Assembly (NCBI GenBank): GCA_903831575.1
Contig: CAIKYB010000017.1
Location: 1-64,000, forward strand
Direction of reading: 5' to 3'
Length of the DNA stretch: 64,000 nucleotides
DNA from: an uncultured Bacteroidota bacterium
Lineage (GTDB): Bacteria > Bacteroidota > Bacteroidia > Chitinophagales > Chitinophagaceae
Shown here: one piece after another, positions 16,887 through 61,404 of the stretch
Position numbering within the stretch: position 1 is the stretch's first letter
Layout of the letters: each line of letters opens with the position of its first letter
Position numbers and translations under genes: made by a program
The notes under the pieces: generated by a model
The model's database searches: none
What the model saw: only the letters and a program-made list of their open reading frames with translations
Told to the model about the DNA's origin: nothing

Positions 16887-19505
16887 TTATTTCAAAGTTT
16901 CTTTTTTCTTTTTTACTTCAATGATGATCACGCCTATCAAAAGGATAAATAACAACCATGAAGAAACGCTGCTTATAGTTCTGCCTAAATAGTAAGTAGC
17001 TGGTTCAAACTTAAAGTCTATTTTATGCTTGCCAGCGGGGATAATCATTCCTCTTAACACATAATTGGTTTTGAAAAAAGAAGAAGGTTTCCCATCGATA
17101 TATACCTTCCAGTCTTTGTAAAAGATCTCGCTGAAAACTGCTACATGACTGTCGTGGGTATTCGATTCATAACTGATGGCATCATTATCAAAGGAAGTCA
17201 TTTTTATAGAATCGGTGCTATCTGGTTGTGTATAAGGCGTGATAATCTTTTTGAAAGATTCATCTACAATTGCAATATCTTTTGGGTTGAAATTATTCAA
17301 CGCTCGCATTTCATTAGCGGGTCCTTTTACAAATTGAATGTTATTAACAAACCAAACATTTCCCAATGCCCCAGGATTTAATTGCGCTACTTTATCATTG
17401 CCTTGTTGTTGTATAACGTATTTGGTATTCAACATATTTACAACAGGCATATTTATATTGCCCTTGAATTGATAAGCAATCAAATCGTCATAGATACCCA
17501 ATTTAGCAGGGTGATATCCTCCAATTGACTTGTGATAATAAGATGTTTTTGATTCGTCCATACTGCTGGGATTGAATACCCTGAAATTGGGATCTTTGTC
17601 TTCCAAAATCATTTTGTCAGCAGTGGTAAGCGGGAAATTATTCGTTTCTGAATTGTCTTTACTTTCAAAGCTTTTGTCGTTCAGATAATTCATACCAAAT
17701 TGAAGAAGGTCTGCAGTAGATACTAATGTTATACCAACAATCATTATCATGGCATTAATTTTCTTTTTAAGAAACAGTGCGATGATAGCTCCGGCAAGAA
17801 CAATAATAAATAGAGAACGAAAGATATCCTTCAATAACAAGGATGCTCTTTCTTTATGCAAAGCAGAAACAAAAGCCCTTGCAGTCTTTGCAGGATCGCT
17901 AATGTTGGGATCTCTGCTAATGTTACTTATCATGGCTTCGTAAATCTGGTTATCAATGGAAGCCTTGTATTTCTCATCTAATTGTTGAAGTGCATCAGCA
18001 TTCCCTTTTGAGTAGATGCTGTTAAACGCTGCAGTACGTTCTTTATTTTCTTTACTAAAATCTGATGAAAAATAGAATAAGGCAATCATTGTAAAAACTA
18101 CTAAAGTAGCGATCCCGGAAAGTTTAAATTTTTTCCAAGAATGCTCATCTTCAGTAGTAATTAATTTATTGACAACCATGGCTGCTATAATAGGAAATAA
18201 TAATTGGGGTACTACTAAAATCATAGTGGGTACTCTGAATTTATTATACAGTGGAAAGTGGTCAAACATAAAATAATTAAATTCAGAAAAATTATCACCC
18301 CAAGAAAGTAATATGGCAAATACACATGCCGTAAAAATCCACCACTTATGTTTATTGTCTAAATAAAACATTCCAAATAAAAATAAAAAACAAATTACTG
18401 CGCCAAGATAGACAGGTCCATTAGTGAAGGGTTGTCCTCCCCAATAAAGCGCTCCGTTCATTTGATTTAAAATCTGGTCGGCAGGAAATTGAGGCAAATT
18501 TTCATTCATGAATGTAACAAGTGGGCCATCATCCTTAATCTTCGGGAAAATATAAACATCTCCATCACGTTCTGCTTGGTGAGAGCCATAACCTAAAACG
18601 CCAGGAAACATTAAGCTCCATGTTTCAGCTTTTCCATAACTCCACATGAAAGCATAGTCTTTGCTTAGACCAGTTGTTTTACCTCCTTCAACTTTATCAT
18701 TAGTATTTGATTTTTGATCTATTACCAATTGCCCACCTCTTTTTGAATCTTTTGAATAATCAAATGTGGTCCATAAAGTCAGTGCATTTATTGCTACACC
18801 AATTATTCCCGCTATAAGTATTATTGAGATGCTTTTAACTAGATGATTTAATTGTTTTGTTCTGATAAAATGTATGAAGTAGGAAATAACCATTACGCCT
18901 AAAACGAGAAATAAATAATAACTTATCTGTTGATGCCCTTGTCCAATTTGTAAGGCAGTTAATAATGCGGCGAGTACAAATCCCATCAAATATTTTTTAT
19001 CGAAAATCAAAATGATGGCGCCAATTACTGCAGGGCTATAGGCAAGTGCAAGCATTTTAGTATTGTGACCGGCTGTTACAATAATGGGAGAGTAGCTGCA
19101 AAAAGCAAAAGCCAGTGCTCCGATGATAGCTGCGGCAGGCCTCATCCGAAGGCAAATGCATAGGAAATAAAAACAAAGGCATGCCAGAAAGAAAAAATTA
19201 AATGGCATGGGTAATCCGAATTGGAAAATTTTATCAAAGAAGGATAGTGGAGACCAATTGCCTTCCATTGCAATCTGATAATTGGGCATACCTCCAAACA
19301 TATTGGTATTCCATAGTGGCAGATGACCATTAATTTTTTTATATTCTAGAGATTGCTGGGCCATTCCTTGCCAACCTGTGGCATCACCTTGTTTTAAACC
19401 TACTCCGCTTTCAAGAGCAGGCTTGCAAAAAATGATGGTAACTAACAGAAAAATAGCGATTGCAATAATGTGAGGAACTACAGGTTTTAAATTAATAGGT
19501 TTCAT
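16887..19505 (-). CDS. YfhO-family multi-spanning membrane protein
   Basis: An 872-residue protein with a hydrophobic N-terminal two-thirds (about 12-14 helices), a soluble segment after roughly residue 600, and a last helix near residue 850 followed by a lysine-rich tail. This layout, with DATGWQGMAQQ, PLWNTNMFGGMPNY and TAGHNTKMLALAYSP in the first loops, is that of the YfhO family as found in Bacteroidota. YfhO proteins are GT-C-like and are linked to glycosylation of lipids or teichoic acids in Firmicutes; the role here is unknown. It lies directly upstream of the GT4 gene on the same strand. Confidence 0.8.
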   Translation of the reverse strand: MKPINLKPVVPHIIAIAIFLLVTIIFCKPALESGVGLKQGDATGWQGMAQQSLEYKKINGHLPLWNTNMFGGMPNYQIAMEGNWSPLSFFDKIFQFGLPMPFNFFFLACLCFYFLCICLRMRPAAAIIGALAFAFCSYSPIIVTAGHNTKMLALAYSPAVIGAIILIFDKKYLMGFVLAALLTALQIGQGHQQISYYLFLVLGVMVISYFIHFIRTKQLNHLVKSISIILIAGIIGVAINALTLWTTFDYSKDSKRGGQLVIDQKSNTNDKVEGGKTTGLSKDYAFMWSYGKAETWSLMFPGVLGYGSHQAERDGDVYIFPKIKDDGPLVTFMNENLPQFPADQILNQMNGALYWGGQPFTNGPVYLGAVICFLFLFGMFYLDNKHKWWIFTACVFAILLSWGDNFSEFNYFMFDHFPLYNKFRVPTMILVVPQLLFPIIAAMVVNKLITTEDEHSWKKFKLSGIATLVVFTMIALFYFSSDFSKENKERTAAFNSIYSKGNADALQQLDEKYKASIDNQIYEAMISNISRDPNISDPAKTARAFVSALHKERASLLLKDIFRSLFIIVLAGAIIALFLKKKINAMIMIVGITLVSTADLLQFGMNYLNDKSFESKDNSETNNFPLTTADKMILEDKDPNFRVFNPSSMDESKTSYYHKSIGGYHPAKLGIYDDLIAYQFKGNINMPVVNMLNTKYVIQQQGNDKVAQLNPGALGNVWFVNNIQFVKGPANEMRALNNFNPKDIAIVDESFKKIITPYTQPDSTDSIKMTSFDNDAISYESNTHDSHVAVFSEIFYKDWKVYIDGKPSSFFKTNYVLRGMIIPAGKHKIDFKFEPATYYLGRTISSVSSWLLFILLIGVIIIEVKKKKETLK

Positions 19506-20789: not shown

Positions 20790-20864
20790 GGTGGTTGTAG
20801 CTCAGCTGGTTAGAGCACCAGATTGTGATTCTGGGGGTCGTGGGTTCGAGCCCCATCATCCACC
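20790..20864 (+). tRNA. tRNA-His (anticodon GTG)
   Basis: A complete cloverleaf can be drawn: acceptor GTGGTTG with CATCCAC (one T:T mismatch at pair 5:68), D-arm AGCTCAGCTGGTTAGAGC, anticodon stem CCAGA/TCTGG with loop TTGTGAT (anticodon GTG at 20825-20827), and T-arm GTGGGTTCGAGCCCC. The extra G at 20790 can pair with C at 20864, the G-1:C73 pair that marks tRNA-His. CCA is not encoded. An intrinsic terminator follows at once. Confidence 0.95.
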
Positions 20865-20898: not shown

Positions 20899-20905
20899 TT
20901 AAATA

Positions 20906-20973
20906 AATCAATCAACTATCCTACCAATCAACCAATCAACCAACAAACCAATCAACTACTCAACTAACTACCT
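20906..20973. repeat. Array of 8-bp CAATCAAC-type units
   Basis: About eight tandem, partly degenerate copies of an 8-bp unit (CAATCAAC, complement of GTTGATTG) lie between the tRNA-His terminator and the Prc-type protease gene. The same unit in the opposite orientation appears near 29431, 36600 and 46770. Confidence 0.7.
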
Positions 20974-21047
20974 GTTTAACAAAAGATTATTTAGTATTAA
21001 AGACATTGTGAAATTAAAAAAGGACTTATTTCCTTTATTTTTACATT

Positions 21048-28611: not shown

Positions 28612-29427
28612 TCAATATTGCTCCTTTTCGTTGGGAAAATCGCCTGACTTTATATCTGAGATATAGTGTTTTACGGCGGTATTTATTTGCTCACTCAAAT
28701 TCAGATATTGTCTTAGAAATCTTGGCTTGAAAGCGGTGTTTATTCCAAGCATATCATGCATAACGAGAACTTGTCCATCACAACGTCCTCCAGCACCAAT
28801 GCCGATTGTTGGGATATGTAAACTTTCTGAAACTTCTTTTGCTAATGCTGCAGGAATTTTTTCTAATACAATGGCAAAACATCCTGCTTCTTGTAAAAGG
28901 AGGGCATCTCTTTTTAATTTCTGTGCTTCTTGTTCTTCTTTTGCACGAACAGTATAAGTGCCAAACTTATAGATGCTTTGTGGAGTTAATCCTAAGTGTC
29001 CCATAACGGGGATGCCTGTACTAACAATTCTTTTTATAGATTCTACCACTTCTTCACCACCTTCTAATTTAACGGAATGTCCTCCTGTTTCTTTCATAAT
29101 GCGGATGGCAGAGTTCAGCGCTTCTTTCGAATTGCCCTGGTAAGAACCAAAAGGCATATCAACAACTACCAGACATCTTTCGATTCCACGTACAACACTT
29201 TGTGCATGGTAAATCATCTGGTCCAATGTTATCGGCAAAGTTGTCTCGTGCCCCGCCATTACATTACTGGCGCTGTCTCCAACTAATATGATATCAATTG
29301 CAGCTTGGTCAAATAATTTTGCAAATGAAAAATCATAGGCGGTTATCATGGAGATTTTTTCGCCGGTTTCTTTCATTTTTTGTAAAGTGTGTGTAGTGAT
29401 TTTTTTTACTTCTTTATTTACTGACAT
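28612..29427 (-). CDS. panB: 3-methyl-2-oxobutanoate hydroxymethyltransferase
   Basis: PanB transfers a hydroxymethyl group from methylene-tetrahydrofolate to alpha-ketoisovalerate, the first committed step of pantothenate synthesis. The 271-residue protein shows [37 protein letters not shown] (metal-binding Asp), [14 protein letters not shown] and GHLGLTPQS, followed by [21 protein letters not shown]. panC lies 1.6 kb upstream on the same strand. An 8-bp repeat array begins immediately before its start codon. Confidence 0.95.
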
Positions 29428-29430
29428 GGG

Positions 29431-29476
29431 GATTAGTTGATTGGTTGATTAGTTGATTAGTTGCTTGGTTGATTAC
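29431..29476. repeat. Array of 8-bp GGTTGATT-type units before panB
   Basis: Five or so tandem copies of GGTTGATT/AGTTGATT occupy the gap between the heptose adenylyltransferase gene and panB. They are the reverse orientation of the array at 20906-20973. Confidence 0.7.
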
Positions 29477-29489
29477 TTTTATAGGAGAA

Positions 29490-36579: not shown

Positions 36580-36645
36580 GTTTAAAAGGTTTAAGATTAA
36601 GAGGTTTAAAAAGTTGAAGAGGTTGGTTGATTGGTTGATTGGTTG
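36578..36645. repeat. Mixed 8-bp repeat array after rlmB
   Basis: Starts at the rlmB stop codon with GTTTAAAAGG/AGTTGAAG-type units and changes to three tandem GGTTGATT units. It joins both unit types of the intergenic repeat family in one place. Confidence 0.65.
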
Positions 36646-36721
36646 ACAAAATTAGCGAAACTTTGTGCCTGTGGCAATACTTAAGTTTTATTTTTTTACT
36701 TTTTACTTTTGAATTTTAAAA

Positions 36722-46388: not shown

Positions 46389-46775
46389 ATGATTCACTCT
46401 TCTTTATATATTGATATCACAGAAAAAAAAGGTAAAGCTGTTTTTACAAATGAAGGTATTGCAGCAGGAGAAATTATTGAAGTGTCTCCAGTGATTGTTA
46501 TGAGAAAAGAAGACCGCTTACATCTTGATCAAACCTTGTTGCATGATTATATTTTCGAATGGGGAGAAAAGAAGGAGCAATGTGCTATGGCATTAGGGTT
46601 TATTCCAATTTACAACCATAGCTATTACAGTAATTGTGAATATTTCATGGACTTTGAAGACGAAACTATTTTTGTAAAAACGGTTAGGGCAATTGAAAAA
46701 GGGGAGGAGTTAACGATTAATTATAACGGTGATTGGGATGACCAAAAGAGGGTTTGGTTTGATGTGGTGGGTTAG
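46389..46775 (+). CDS. Small SET-domain protein, possible protein-lysine methyltransferase
   Basis: A 128-residue protein made of little more than a SET domain. The start KGKAVFTNEGIAAGEIIEVSP is the usual first SET block. ALGFIPIYNHSYYSNC corresponds to the NHS-containing SAM-binding motif, and IEKGEELTINYNGDWDD to the EEL-x-x-x-Y catalytic motif. Eukaryotic SET enzymes methylate histones; bacterial ones act on ribosomal or other proteins, often unknown. It has no neighbours of related function. Its stop codon already lies within a GTTGGTTG repeat. Confidence 0.82.
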   Translation: MIHSSLYIDITEKKGKAVFTNEGIAAGEIIEVSPVIVMRKEDRLHLDQTLLHDYIFEWGEKKEQCAMALGFIPIYNHSYYSNCEYFMDFEDETIFVKTVRAIEKGEELTINYNGDWDDQKRVWFDVVG

Positions 46776-46887
46776 TTGGTTGGTTGGTAATAAATACAAA
46801 TGATCAAAGATAAACTACAACCAATATGTCGAAAAAATAAAAGGTTGACTAGTAGAACTAATCAACCTTTTAACTAATCAACTAATT
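46769..46887. repeat. GGTTGGTT-type repeats and hairpin after the SET gene
   Basis: GTTAGTTGGTTGGTTGGT begins at the SET gene's last codons. Further on, ACTAATCAACC-type units run up to the aconitase gene and form the arm of the terminator hairpin at 46839-46871. So the repeat units supply the terminator here. Confidence 0.6.
46839..46871. terminator. Bidirectional terminator between SET gene and aconitase
   Basis: AAAAGGTTGA-CTAGT pairs with ACTAATCAACCTTTT (14 of 15 pairs) around a 3-nt loop. A-rich and T-rich flanks suit both converging genes. Confidence 0.65.
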
Positions 46888-54023: not shown

Positions 54024-54066
54024 TTTACCTCACCCCCAACCCCTCTCCCAAGTGAGAGGGGAGTGT
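54024..54066. repeat. Left 43-bp flanking repeat of the DUF6934 module
   Basis: Contains the hairpin CCCCTCTC (54040-54047) / GAGAGGGG (54054-54061) after a CTCACCCCCAA segment. The copy at 54856-54898 is identical except for one A/G difference, in the same orientation. It looks like a REP-type element and is GC-rich against its surroundings. Confidence 0.85.
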
Positions 54067-54855: not shown

Positions 54856-54898
54856 TTTACCTCACCCCCAACCCCTCTCCCGAGTGAGAGGGGAGTGT
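54856..54898. repeat. Right 43-bp flanking repeat of the DUF6934 module
   Basis: Same orientation as the copy at 54024-54066, 42 of 43 positions identical. It ends 10 bp before the dapB stop codon. Its hairpin (CCCCTCTC/GAGAGGGG) may also end the transcripts of dapB or the module. Confidence 0.85.
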
Positions 54899-58586: not shown

Positions 58587-59387
58587 TTACTCTATCACTT
58601 TATCTTCTTGTCTGATTTTAGTCATATTATTTTTCTGCAAAATTTCTTTTGCAAGGTTCAAATAATTTACTGCTCCTTTGCTTTCTGCATCGTATAATAT
58701 TACGGGTTTACCAAAACTTGGAGCTTCACTTAATCTGGTGTTTCTATGTATAATGCTGCTGAATACCATGTCTTCAAAATGTCGTCTCACTTCACTTACC
58801 ACTTGATTGCACAAACGCAATCTGCCATCATACATGGTCATTAATATGCCTTCAATTTTTAAATCAGTATTTAATCGGTTTTGAACAATCTTAACCGTGT
58901 TCAATAATTTCCCTAATCCTTCTAAGGCAAAGAATTCGGTTTGAACTGGAATAACAACACTATCGGCAGCGGTTAGTGCATTTACTGTTATCAATCCAAG
59001 TGATGGAGAGCAATCAATAATAATGAAATCATAATTATCGGAGATAGCTTCTAATATTTTTTTTAAAACCAATTCGCGATTGGGGTAACTAATCATTTCT
59101 ATTTCCGCTCCTACAAGATCAATATGAGAAGGGATAAGATCAAGGTGAGGGATGGCTGTTTTTAACACAACATCCTTTGCCTCGGCCTCATTAACCATGC
59201 AATCGTAAAGACTTTTTGTGATATTTTGCAAATCAAATCCCACACCGGTGGTACTATTTGCCTGCGGATCTGCATCTACTAAAAGCGTTCTATATTCAAG
59301 TATAGCAAGACTCGCAGCCAAATTAATAGCTGTAGTTGTTTTTCCTACTCCTCCTTTTTGATTTGCTACTCCAATTATTCTAGCCAT
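58587..59387 (-). CDS. parA: Chromosome partitioning ATPase ParA
   Basis: A 266-residue deviant Walker-type ATPase. MARIIGVANQKGGVGKTTTAINLAASLA contains the KGGVGKTT P-loop; LLVDADPQANST and IIDCSPSLGLITVNAL are Walker A' and B. The correct start is ATG 59387. The frame is open for 52 more codons upstream, but that part reads through an 8-bp repeat array and gives eight-residue peptide repeats, so it is not taken as coding. parB follows directly. Confidence 0.95.
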   Translation of the reverse strand: MARIIGVANQKGGVGKTTTAINLAASLAILEYRTLLVDADPQANSTTGVGFDLQNITKSLYDCMVNEAEAKDVVLKTAIPHLDLIPSHIDLVGAEIEMISYPNRELVLKKILEAISDNYDFIIIDCSPSLGLITVNALTAADSVVIPVQTEFFALEGLGKLLNTVKIVQNRLNTDLKIEGILMTMYDGRLRLCNQVVSEVRRHFEDMVFSSIIHRNTRLSEAPSFGKPVILYDAESKGAVNYLNLAKEILQKNNMTKIRQEDKVIE

Positions 59388-59456
59388 GTTTAAAGTAATC
59401 GTTGCTTTATTTAATACGAAAATCGGTGAAATTTTGATGTAATTTAAGGAATTTGA

Positions 59457-59528
59457 TTGAAAGGTTGAAAGGTTGAAGGGTTGAAAGGTTAAAGGGTTGA
59501 AGGGTTGAAAAGTTGAAAGGTTAAAGGG
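59457..59528. repeat. Nine tandem 8-bp units (TTGAAAGG type) upstream of parA
   Basis: Nine consecutive 8-bp units with the consensus TTGAAAGG (variants TTGAAGGG, TTAAAGGG, TTGAAAAG). Three units make 24 bp, so on the opposite strand the open frame encodes an eight-residue repeat. This is the clearest example of the intergenic repeat family in the window. Confidence 0.9.
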
Positions 59529-59542
59529 TAATTTTCCTATCA

Positions 59543-59682
59543 ACCCAACTAACTAATCACCTAACCAACTAATCACCTAACCAACTAATCATCTAACCAC
59601 TATTCAACTAATCACCCACCTAACCACCTAACCAACTAATCATCCAATCACTATTCAACTAATCACCTAACCAACTAATCAC
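59543..59682. repeat. Array of AACTAATC/ACCTAACC 8-bp units between parA and the helicase
   Basis: About seventeen 8-bp units alternating mainly AACTAATC and ACCTAACC, some degenerate (for example ACTATTCA). They run from beside the TTGAAAGG array to the helicase stop codon at 59683. The whole 59457-59682 stretch is repeat, with only a short unique part in between. Confidence 0.85.
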
Positions 59683-61404
59683 CTATCGTCTTTCTCTTGA
59701 AGCAGGAGCATAAGTTCTTTTTCTACCTTCGTCAGTTGGTCTTTTAAATCCGCCATCAGCTTCATTCATTCTTACGGTACGATTATTATAACGTTTTCCG
59801 TCAATGGCTTTAATCATTTTTCCAGCATTGGCTTTATCTACTTCTACCCAGCTGTTCATATCTCTCATATCAATTTTGCCCAATACTTCTTTTTTCAAAT
59901 TGCTTTCATCCAGAATGAATTGTAAGAAACTAGCTTTATAAAAACCATCTTTTATTCCTAGGTTGATGAATAATCTTGTATAGCCATTGTCTCTTCTGCT
60001 GAAGGTACGTTCGCTTCTGCTTCCAGTGCTATTGATGGCTTCTTTTGAAAACTCCTGACTTCTGCCTCTTTCATTTAGTTTCGTATTAAGGTCATCAGCA
60101 TTTTCATAGTATTTCAAGAAGTGATCAAATTCAAGTGCTGCCACTCTTTGTAATACTTCTTCTTTAGATACATTTTCAAATTTCTGCATTAAGTCTGGAA
60201 GGTAAGTTTCATAATCGCCATGAGAAATATCAGTTTGAATTAGTTTGTCCATAAAATGAAAAAACTGTCTGCGACAAACTTCTTTACCACTTGGGATATC
60301 TACTTTATGGAAAGTAGCGTTTACCATTTTTTCTAGTTGTCTTATTTTGAATGTTTCTCTAGTATGTATGATAGAAATACAAATGCCGCTCTTCCCAGCT
60401 CTCGCTGTACGTCCGCTTCTATGAGTATATACTTCAATGTCATCTGGTAATTCATAATTGATTACATGTGTAATGCCATCTACGTCAATTCCTCTTGCTG
60501 CCACGTCTGTTGCGATGAGTAATTGTAAAGCCTTGCTTCTGAAACGACCCATTACTTTATCACGTTGTTGTTGTGTTAAATCGCCATGAAGTGCTTCTAT
60601 ATCATAACCATTTTTTGATAATCTTTCAGAGATTTCTTGTGCATCAGCTTTGGTACGTGTGAATATGATGCCGTACATGCCTGGATTGAAATCGATTAAT
60701 CTTTTTAATGTTTCATAGCGGTGATGAGCAGCCGTAATATAAAATTGGTGATCAATATTTACATTGCCGCTATTCTTTTTCCCTACAGTGATTTCCTTAG
60801 GTGAAGTCATGAAGTTTTTAGAAATCGCTCTTACTTCCGGTGGCATTGTTGCACTGAACAACCAAATGCTTTCTCTGTTGATGGTATTTTTTAATACAAA
60901 GTCAATATCATCTCTGAAGCCCATGTTAAGCATTTCATCAGCTTCATCCAATACGACGTATTTTACTTTTTGAAGATCGATTGCTTTTCTTTCGATAAGA
61001 TCGATTAACCTTCCTGGAGTAGCTACAACAATCTGAACCCCTTGACGAAGGTTACGAATTTGCATAGTAATGGAAGCGCCACCATAAACGGCTTCAGTTT
61101 GAACTCCTTTTAAATGTTTTTTATAATCTAGCAAATCATTAGTTATTTGCAAACACAATTCACGTGTCGGGCAAACGATCAGTGCCTGAGGAAATCTATC
61201 AGCTGAGTTAATCAACTGAAGCAAGGGTAATCCAAAAGCGGCAGTTTTTCCGGTACCTGTTTGTGCCAATCCTACAAAATCAGTTGTTCCTGATAATAGA
61301 ACAGGGATAGCTTGTTCTTGAATGGGTGTTGGGCTGGTAAATCCCAAGTCTGTAATAGCTTGTAAGATCTCGGTTTTGAGGCCTAATGCTTCAAATGTAG
61401 TCAT
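59683..61404 (-). CDS. deaD: DEAD-box ATP-dependent RNA helicase
   Basis: A 573-residue helicase. Q-motif region FTSPTPIQEQAIPVLL, motif I AQTGTGKT, PTRELC, DEAD in VLDEADEMLNMGF, SATMP, IIFTRTKADAQ, and HRSGRTARAGKSG are all present. The C-terminal part (about 470-545, FINLGIKDGFYKASFLQFILD ... IKAIDGKRYNNRTVRMNEA) is a DbpA-type RNA-binding domain, so it resembles DeaD/CsdA, which acts in ribosome assembly and cold adaptation. The basic tail follows. A promoter box at 61599 implies a leader of about 190 nt. Confidence 0.93.
   Translation of the reverse strand: MTTFEALGLKTEILQAITDLGFTSPTPIQEQAIPVLLSGTTDFVGLAQTGTGKTAAFGLPLLQLINSADRFPQALIVCPTRELCLQITNDLLDYKKHLKGVQTEAVYGGASITMQIRNLRQGVQIVVATPGRLIDLIERKAIDLQKVKYVVLDEADEMLNMGFRDDIDFVLKNTINRESIWLFSATMPPEVRAISKNFMTSPKEITVGKKNSGNVNIDHQFYITAAHHRYETLKRLIDFNPGMYGIIFTRTKADAQEISERLSKNGYDIEALHGDLTQQQRDKVMGRFRSKALQLLIATDVAARGIDVDGITHVINYELPDDIEVYTHRSGRTARAGKSGICISIIHTRETFKIRQLEKMVNATFHKVDIPSGKEVCRRQFFHFMDKLIQTDISHGDYETYLPDLMQKFENVSKEEVLQRVAALEFDHFLKYYENADDLNTKLNERGRSQEFSKEAINSTGSRSERTFSRRDNGYTRLFINLGIKDGFYKASFLQFILDESNLKKEVLGKIDMRDMNSWVEVDKANAGKMIKAIDGKRYNNRTVRMNEADGGFKRPTDEGRKRTYAPASRERR

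Follow-up and report, generated by a model that had tools for sequence, protein, structure and literature searches.

Strand-polarized tandem repeat arrays at gene boundaries of an uncultured Chitinophagaceae bacterium

Two facing arrays between parA and a helicase gene

Why should the gap between two bacterial genes be occupied by two arrays of short repeats that face each other, and is this arrangement peculiar to one locus or part of something wider? The question arose from a 64,000-nt stretch of DNA (hereafter the window) belonging to an uncultured Chitinophagaceae bacterium with a 2.44-Mb assembly in 46 contigs, in which no 16S rRNA gene was found. The gap (positions 59388–59682, 295 bp) lies between two minus-strand genes identified with Pfam. 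Upstream of it is a gene for a DEAD-box RNA helicase with a DbpA RNA-binding domain (59683–61404), and on its other side is parA (58587–59387), with an ATG start at 59387, where alignments with homologues begin. A longer ParA frame with a TTG start remains open through the first array because that strand lacks stop codons there.

The initial annotation had described two neighboring arrays of 8-bp units, and both are present. The first (59457–59528), G-rich and without C on the plus strand, consists of nine units in the order TTGAAAGG, TTGAAAGG, TTGAAGGG, TTGAAAGG, TTAAAGGG, TTGAAGGG, TTGAAAAG, TTGAAAGG, TTAAAGGG, scored as 9.0 copies by Tandem Repeats Finder; read in the sense of parA, it is C-rich and stop-free. 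A spacer (59529–59542) separates it from the second array (59543–59685), composed of AACTAATC/ACCTAACC with a period of 8 or 16, which is C-rich on the plus strand and contains 0 G across 143 nt. For this array, Tandem Repeats Finder reported 16.6 copies with period 8 (59551–59685) or 9.3 copies with period 16 (59543–59685), indels of 7–9% and a 51-bp higher-order repeat at 59565–59675. The pair, C-less and then G-less on the plus strand, resembles a loose palindrome with its arms turned toward each other. Rfam at gathering thresholds gave no match at either array.

Some features of the initial description needed adjustment. The gap had been called almost entirely repetitive; the arrays cover 72% of it, while the 69 bp beside parA (59388–59456, minus strand) form a non-repetitive leader. 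A segment of this leader, ACCGATTTT, is common to several relatives; the array region is thus bounded by a conserved leader on one side and by the end of the helicase gene on the other. The second array had been said to run to the helicase stop codon. It does reach that point but also contains the stop, as the helicase TAG (59683–59685, minus strand) is the first TAG of the array. In the sense of the helicase, the array is G-rich, C-less and rich in stops, which occur in all frames, so the statement that slippage would alter the distance between genes but not a frame misses the helicase stop inside the array.

A genome-wide family and its strand rule

The regular period had also been considered unusual, which does not hold for this genome. 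A genome-wide repeat search, proposed at the outset as a check, found further arrays of the same vocabulary: a pattern of three consecutive GATTRGTT units with up to three mismatches gave 134 matches (51 forward, 83 reverse; overlaps counted), and GGTTRAARGGTTRAARGG with up to two mismatches gave 40. Examples from the window include plus-strand arrays of ACCAATCA (20902–20975) and GATTAGTT/GATTGGTT (29416–29486), an array that follows a stop codon and has the end GGTTGATTGGTTGATTGG (36580–36646, plus strand) and a gap with the facing arms GGTTAGTTGGTTGG ... AACTAATCAACC (46765–46886).

For quantification, we used an unbiased sample of 384 kb, comprising the window and sixteen 20-kb stretches, and defined a cluster as three or more GTTGA/TCAAC words with starts no more than 14 nt apart. 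This sample contained 14 clusters, 0 of them in genes, as compared to none in nine and one in the tenth of ten first-order Markov shuffles, which excludes chance. Of the arrays detected by Tandem Repeats Finder with a score of at least 40, 46 are non-coding and 28 coding; the GTTGA/TCAAC core was present in 20 of the former and in none of the latter. A larger, array-enriched sample provided 37 clusters, one of them inside a gene, with core spacings of 8 (81 cases), 10 (35), 11 (35), 12 (14), 9 (6) and 13 nt (2). Array periods of 8, 9, 10, 11, 12, 16, 19–21 and 24 were seen, with imperfect units. The two arrays beside parA are, thus, one instance among dozens in this bacterium, neither isolated nor randomly oriented.

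Other features of the window were recorded alongside this survey. It contains a tmRNA (228–599) and a tRNA (20791–20864), the latter followed by the array at 20902–20975 with almost no G. In addition, the 22-mer CCTCACCCCCAACCCCTCTCCC occurs twice (54028–54049 and 54860–54881), downstream of neighboring genes.

Nearly all arms obey a strand rule: read from either end of a gap toward its middle, the repeats are G-rich and lack C, hence GTTGA precedes TCAAC. Arms were placed relative to gene ends using a purpose-made codon-model gene caller. In a set of 47 arms from a sample enriched for arrays, all 18 arms in convergent gaps were G-rich in the sense of the gene with the nearest stop. The same orientation was seen for 15 of the 16 arms nearest a stop in tandem gaps, while eight of the nine tandem-gap arms nearest a start were C-rich in sense; among the four arms in divergent gaps, three kept the inward-G rule. 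The polarity is imperfect: under a looser two-word rule applied to the unbiased sample (175 gaps examined), 30 of 35 word-bearing gaps conformed and five were exceptions. Conforming gaps amounted to 60 of 66 in all fetched stretches of this genome, 24 of 27 in G154, a member of a different genus in the same family, 7 of 7 in G009, 14 of 16 in G006 and 2 of 2 in G022. A composition test in four other genomes found 30 of 32 arms following the rule.

Word order gave the same picture, with all GTTGA ahead of all TCAAC in 31 of 33 gaps that contained at least four words and both kinds. The pattern GTTGA-N3-GTTGA followed by TCAAC-N3-TCAAC was detected in three of 12 whole genomes (36 matches in G154, four in G006 and two in G000; overlaps counted), and its reverse order in none of the 12. 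In relatives with other words, a first composition-based test covering ten other genus members and twelve members of the order recovered 10 arms, seven inward-G and three not; this test missed some visible arrays, perhaps covered by the gene caller, and later tests used genomes with the GTTGA vocabulary. The control genome G023, which has no array-pattern matches, leaned the same way in 14 of 18 gaps, with 10 of 10 convergent and tandem gaps but 4 of 8 divergent ones.

Generic hairpins were considered as a source of polarity and rejected. Stems of 5-mers in gaps had no G-before-C bias (ratio 0.94–1.12 across six sets of samples), and at short range the sample from this genome had two GTTGA..TCAAC stems versus two in reversed order. 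As ordinary stems lack such a bias, ordinary terminators are not the source of the polarity.

Arrays begin at stop codons and often supply the gene's own stop signal. The array-enriched sample of this genome has 210 3′ ends with gaps of 60 nt or more, and a sense array is present at 35 of them. The stop statistics, partly circular because the array-calling words contain TGA/TAG and the region counted includes part of the gene end, gave TAG 19, TGA 10 and TAA 6 at these 35 ends versus TAA 122, TAG 30 and TGA 23 at the other 175 (Fisher P = 1.2 × 10−8) and, in G154, TAG 13, TGA 9 and TAA 1 at array ends versus TAA 22, TAG 13 and TGA 11 elsewhere (P = 2.8 × 10−4). A freer and less circular check came from the orthologous rbfA–permease gap, which is repetitive or palindromic in eight of 27 genomes (judged by eye); rbfA ends there in TGA (3), TAG (3) or TAA (2), as compared to TAA (17), TAG (1) and TGA (1) in the other 19 genomes. 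The final ten codons at array ends of this genome were poor in C (7.5% versus 13.4%) and rich in G (33.9% versus 20.5%), with no C difference and a G content of 25.4% versus 20.1% in the ten codons further up. The last ten codons at G154 array ends were likewise C-poor and G-rich. Stops in all frames were reached within a mean of 34 nt, as compared to 74 nt in shuffled arrays.

The mirrored arm appears at 5′ ends, where in G154 at least two TCAAC were located upstream in 17 of 63 cases and at least two GTTGA in one of 63. More generally, G was less abundant than C in the 60 nt upstream of starts in most Bacteroidota samples, while 3′ flanks mostly did not have this bias. Bacteroidetes are described as being without Shine–Dalgarno sequences in a passage of PMC6847099. 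Within the unbiased sample, arrays occupied four of 24 convergent, 13 of 113 tandem and one of 43 divergent gaps (P = 0.05 and 0.11 versus divergent), values that do no more than suggest that gene 3′ ends are favored over divergent gaps.

Turnover and patchiness among relatives

The initial annotation had reasoned that strict conservation among relatives would point to a selected function rather than slippage. The nearest named relatives of ParA are Chitinophagaceae MAGs, and a helicase–parA junction with an array was seen in none of 30 ParA loci and none of 26 helicase loci of relatives, so strict conservation was not observed. Instead, a convergent metallophosphoesterase gene (Pfam PF00149) follows the helicase in at least 13 of the 26 loci, among them the nine with the highest helicase identity; this count is a lower bound, as 1.5 kb past the helicase was viewed and some contigs end early. 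The gene is absent from this site in the present genome, nor was it seen elsewhere in the stretches of the genome that were fetched. At this locus, the array occupies the place of the metallophosphoesterase gene of the closest relatives and of an intrinsic terminator in several. Gene loss at an array gap was evident at this locus only. For the idea that array gaps may mark deletions more generally, a comparison with G023, restricted to gaps with both flanks found (16 with one flank found were set aside), showed adjacent flanks there for two of four array gaps versus eight of 11 plain gaps.

The rbfA–permease gap illustrates how the words change within the genus. G006 has GTTGA arrays there, the words in G021, G013, G014, G010 and G002 are quite different, and G004 and G039 have a single repetitive arm; in the other 19 genomes, the gap is plain and at most 59 nt long, with 17 nt in the present genome. 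Six of the 30 genomes of the genus and 18 of the 198 of the class contained the GATTRGTT pattern (up to two mismatches), with the present genome counted in both.

G154 carries a more compact form. We read 21 compact elements in 27 stretches retrieved for the pattern, none of them inside a gene, each built as (GTTGANNN)2–5, a loop that differs each time and (NNNTCAAC)2–6. Loop variation of this kind speaks against an origin by copying entire units. The triplets agree better between arms of the same gap than across gaps (0.67 versus 0.57, permutation P = 4 × 10−4). The elements were distributed over four convergent, 14 tandem and three divergent gaps, with 13, 43 and 10 such gaps available in those stretches, so gene 3′ ends as such are not preferred in G154. 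Gap-specific pairing of arms was tried as a separate candidate and not found by RNAduplex in either this genome or G154; in the latter, it was seen on triplets alone.

Further repeats were observed elsewhere. One locus of G021 (L220, 12804–12886 and 13058–13087) contains 7-bp arrays of a different dialect, GGTTGGT, GTGAGTG and then ACTAACA, once more G-rich followed by C-rich. Contig C13 of G000 (around 18223–18430; loci L010 and L058) has ~50-bp repeats with the hairpin CCCCTAACGGGG, adjoining a long TTTCAACC array, and G025 (L234, 2392–3569) has five near-identical copies of a AGTGATCATGCTGAATTCAGCAGCGAAATGTCATCAGG-type repeat at 279-bp spacing.

Origin and possible roles

Short tandem repeats have been described between bacterial genes before; the distinguishing features here are the word, the mainly 3′ position in the present genome, the face-to-face polarity and the takeover of stop codons. 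Prokaryotic long simple sequence repeats with 5–11-nt units are longer than expected by chance and patchy between species (Mrazek et al. 2007, as cited in a passage of PMC4679880). Our arrays resemble them in the period of 8 shared by both arrays, the core spacings of 8–13 nt in 37 clusters and the excess of clusters (14 versus 0–1 after shuffling), but, unlike the repeats as that passage describes them, they are polarized, have facing arms and begin at stop codons. TAACTGA heptamer repeats, reported from marine Beggiatoaceae, cyanobacteria and some Bacteroidetes, are likewise intergenic, short, tandem and patchy, with longer arrays in some Bacteroidetes, and stop codons in one orientation have already been named as a limit on their placement (MacGregor 2015, PMC4679880). 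They differ from ours in word and unit length (TTGAAAGG and AACTAATC/ACCTAACC here) and in lying mostly just upstream of starts in the Beggiatoaceae genome, whereas the present arrays are found chiefly at 3′ ends and have their mirrored counterpart on the 5′ side. For lake bacterioplankton MAGs, a passage of PMC9426551 describes intergenic tandem repeats with deletions and slippage-type length variants and goes on to Planctomycetes; no polarity or word is given there. Titles and abstract openings of the literature searched did not mention strand polarity.

The explanation we favor, to which we assign an even chance, is that the arrays grew locally by slippage and that their polarity was fixed by selection at gene ends. 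Each arm would have grown where it stands, as 8–12-nt words were added again and again by slippage or duplication. We infer slippage itself from the imperfect tandem units, the different words of relatives and the differing loops; the matched spacers of G154 suggest that template switching from one facing arm to the other may contribute there as well. Two filters would then act on the products. At 3′ ends, stop codons would be needed in sense, and beside a stop codon the mRNA-sense strand is the G-rich, C-less one full of TGA/TAG, so that an array can overrun the gene end and supply a stop in any frame. At 5′ ends, G-poor leaders would be favored, and beside a start the sense strand is the G-less complement. 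The predicted net effect is at most a two-way, all-frame translation stop combined with a spacer, and a function of the arrays is unproven. The patchy presence in six of 30 genus genomes, including the present one, argues against an important function. A purely local origin also does not explain why GTTGA dominates one genome and recurs in scattered ones. The slippage proposed in the initial annotation is accordingly retained in part: imperfect units and varied periods agree with it, while strand polarity is not expected of free, unconstrained slippage.

Neutral slippage alone, with polarity arising from the loss of protein-extending cases, is an unlikely alternative account. It would suit arrays that are patchy, unconserved and variable in period, and the stop-free orientation at a 3′ end would indeed lengthen the protein. 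However, it leaves unexplained the reverse polarity at starts (eight of nine arms; 17 versus one of 63 in G154) and the near absence of repeat-encoded protein ends, with one of 37 clusters in a gene.

We consider it similarly unlikely that the arrays serve as bidirectional transcription terminators or 3′-end stabilizers, with facing arms forming a hairpin in either transcript. Like intrinsic terminators, they follow stop codons and have inverted arms, which together form a quasi-palindrome, and the same-gap triplet match in G154 would fit such a role. Canonical terminators were fewer at array ends of this genome than at other ends (2/35 versus 34/175, P = 0.051), and several relatives have a T-tract terminator after the TAA stop at the helicase end (by eye). 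Against this stands the parA–helicase gap itself, in which, unlike in intrinsic terminators, no compact GC stem with T-tract was found on either strand of 59388–59682 and folding gave z = −0.99. Moreover, many gaps have a single arm only, and arms paired with their own partners no better than with those of other gaps (RNAduplex mean rank 0.52 in this genome, 0.53 in G154). A hairpin terminator is possible for the compact G154 form and poorly supported for the parA–helicase gap.

A trans-acting factor specific for GTTGA could maintain the words, either as an RNA-binding or DNA-binding protein or as an enzyme writing G/T-rich units inward from gene ends. We give this a slim chance. It would account for a single core word in 20 of 46 non-coding but 0 of 28 coding arrays, for the recurrence of this core, with free triplets (GTTGANNN), in another genus and for a polarity independent of gene direction, and a GTTGA-recognizing factor, although hypothetical, would best explain the genome-wide dialect. 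Against it, other relatives use other words. Comparably slim is the chance of a bolder version, in which a lineage-specific GTTGA factor would write or maintain inward G/T-rich repeats from gene ends, giving genomes a dialect of boundary marks that stands in for stop codons and terminators and changes from one species to the next.

Rho-dependent terminators, with the C-rich, G-less strand as a string of rut sites, are very improbable: Rho is encoded and the second array has no G on the plus strand, yet a transcript leaving a gene meets the G-rich arm first and the C-rich arm last on both strands, the opposite of a rut site right after the stop. Least probable of all is a mobile palindrome of the REP or MITE-like kind, since, although the arrays are dispersed, palindromic and intergenic in the manner of REP/ERIC/MITE-type palindromes, which are intergenic, palindromic and repeated, they have no constant sequence or length, the loops of the 21 G154 elements differ (by eye) and no constant sequence beyond the 5-mers was seen.

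These arrays call for caution with gene callers, as one array strand is stop-free and can generate false N-terminal extensions, such as that of ParA here. Repeats of this short tandem kind in bacterial intergenic DNA are commonly put down to random slippage. A near one-way strand rule that is found in two genera and tied to stop codons indicates that something orders the arrays, be it selection at gene ends or a dedicated factor, and makes them a simple, testable system for the rewriting of gene boundaries and the turnover of intergenic DNA.
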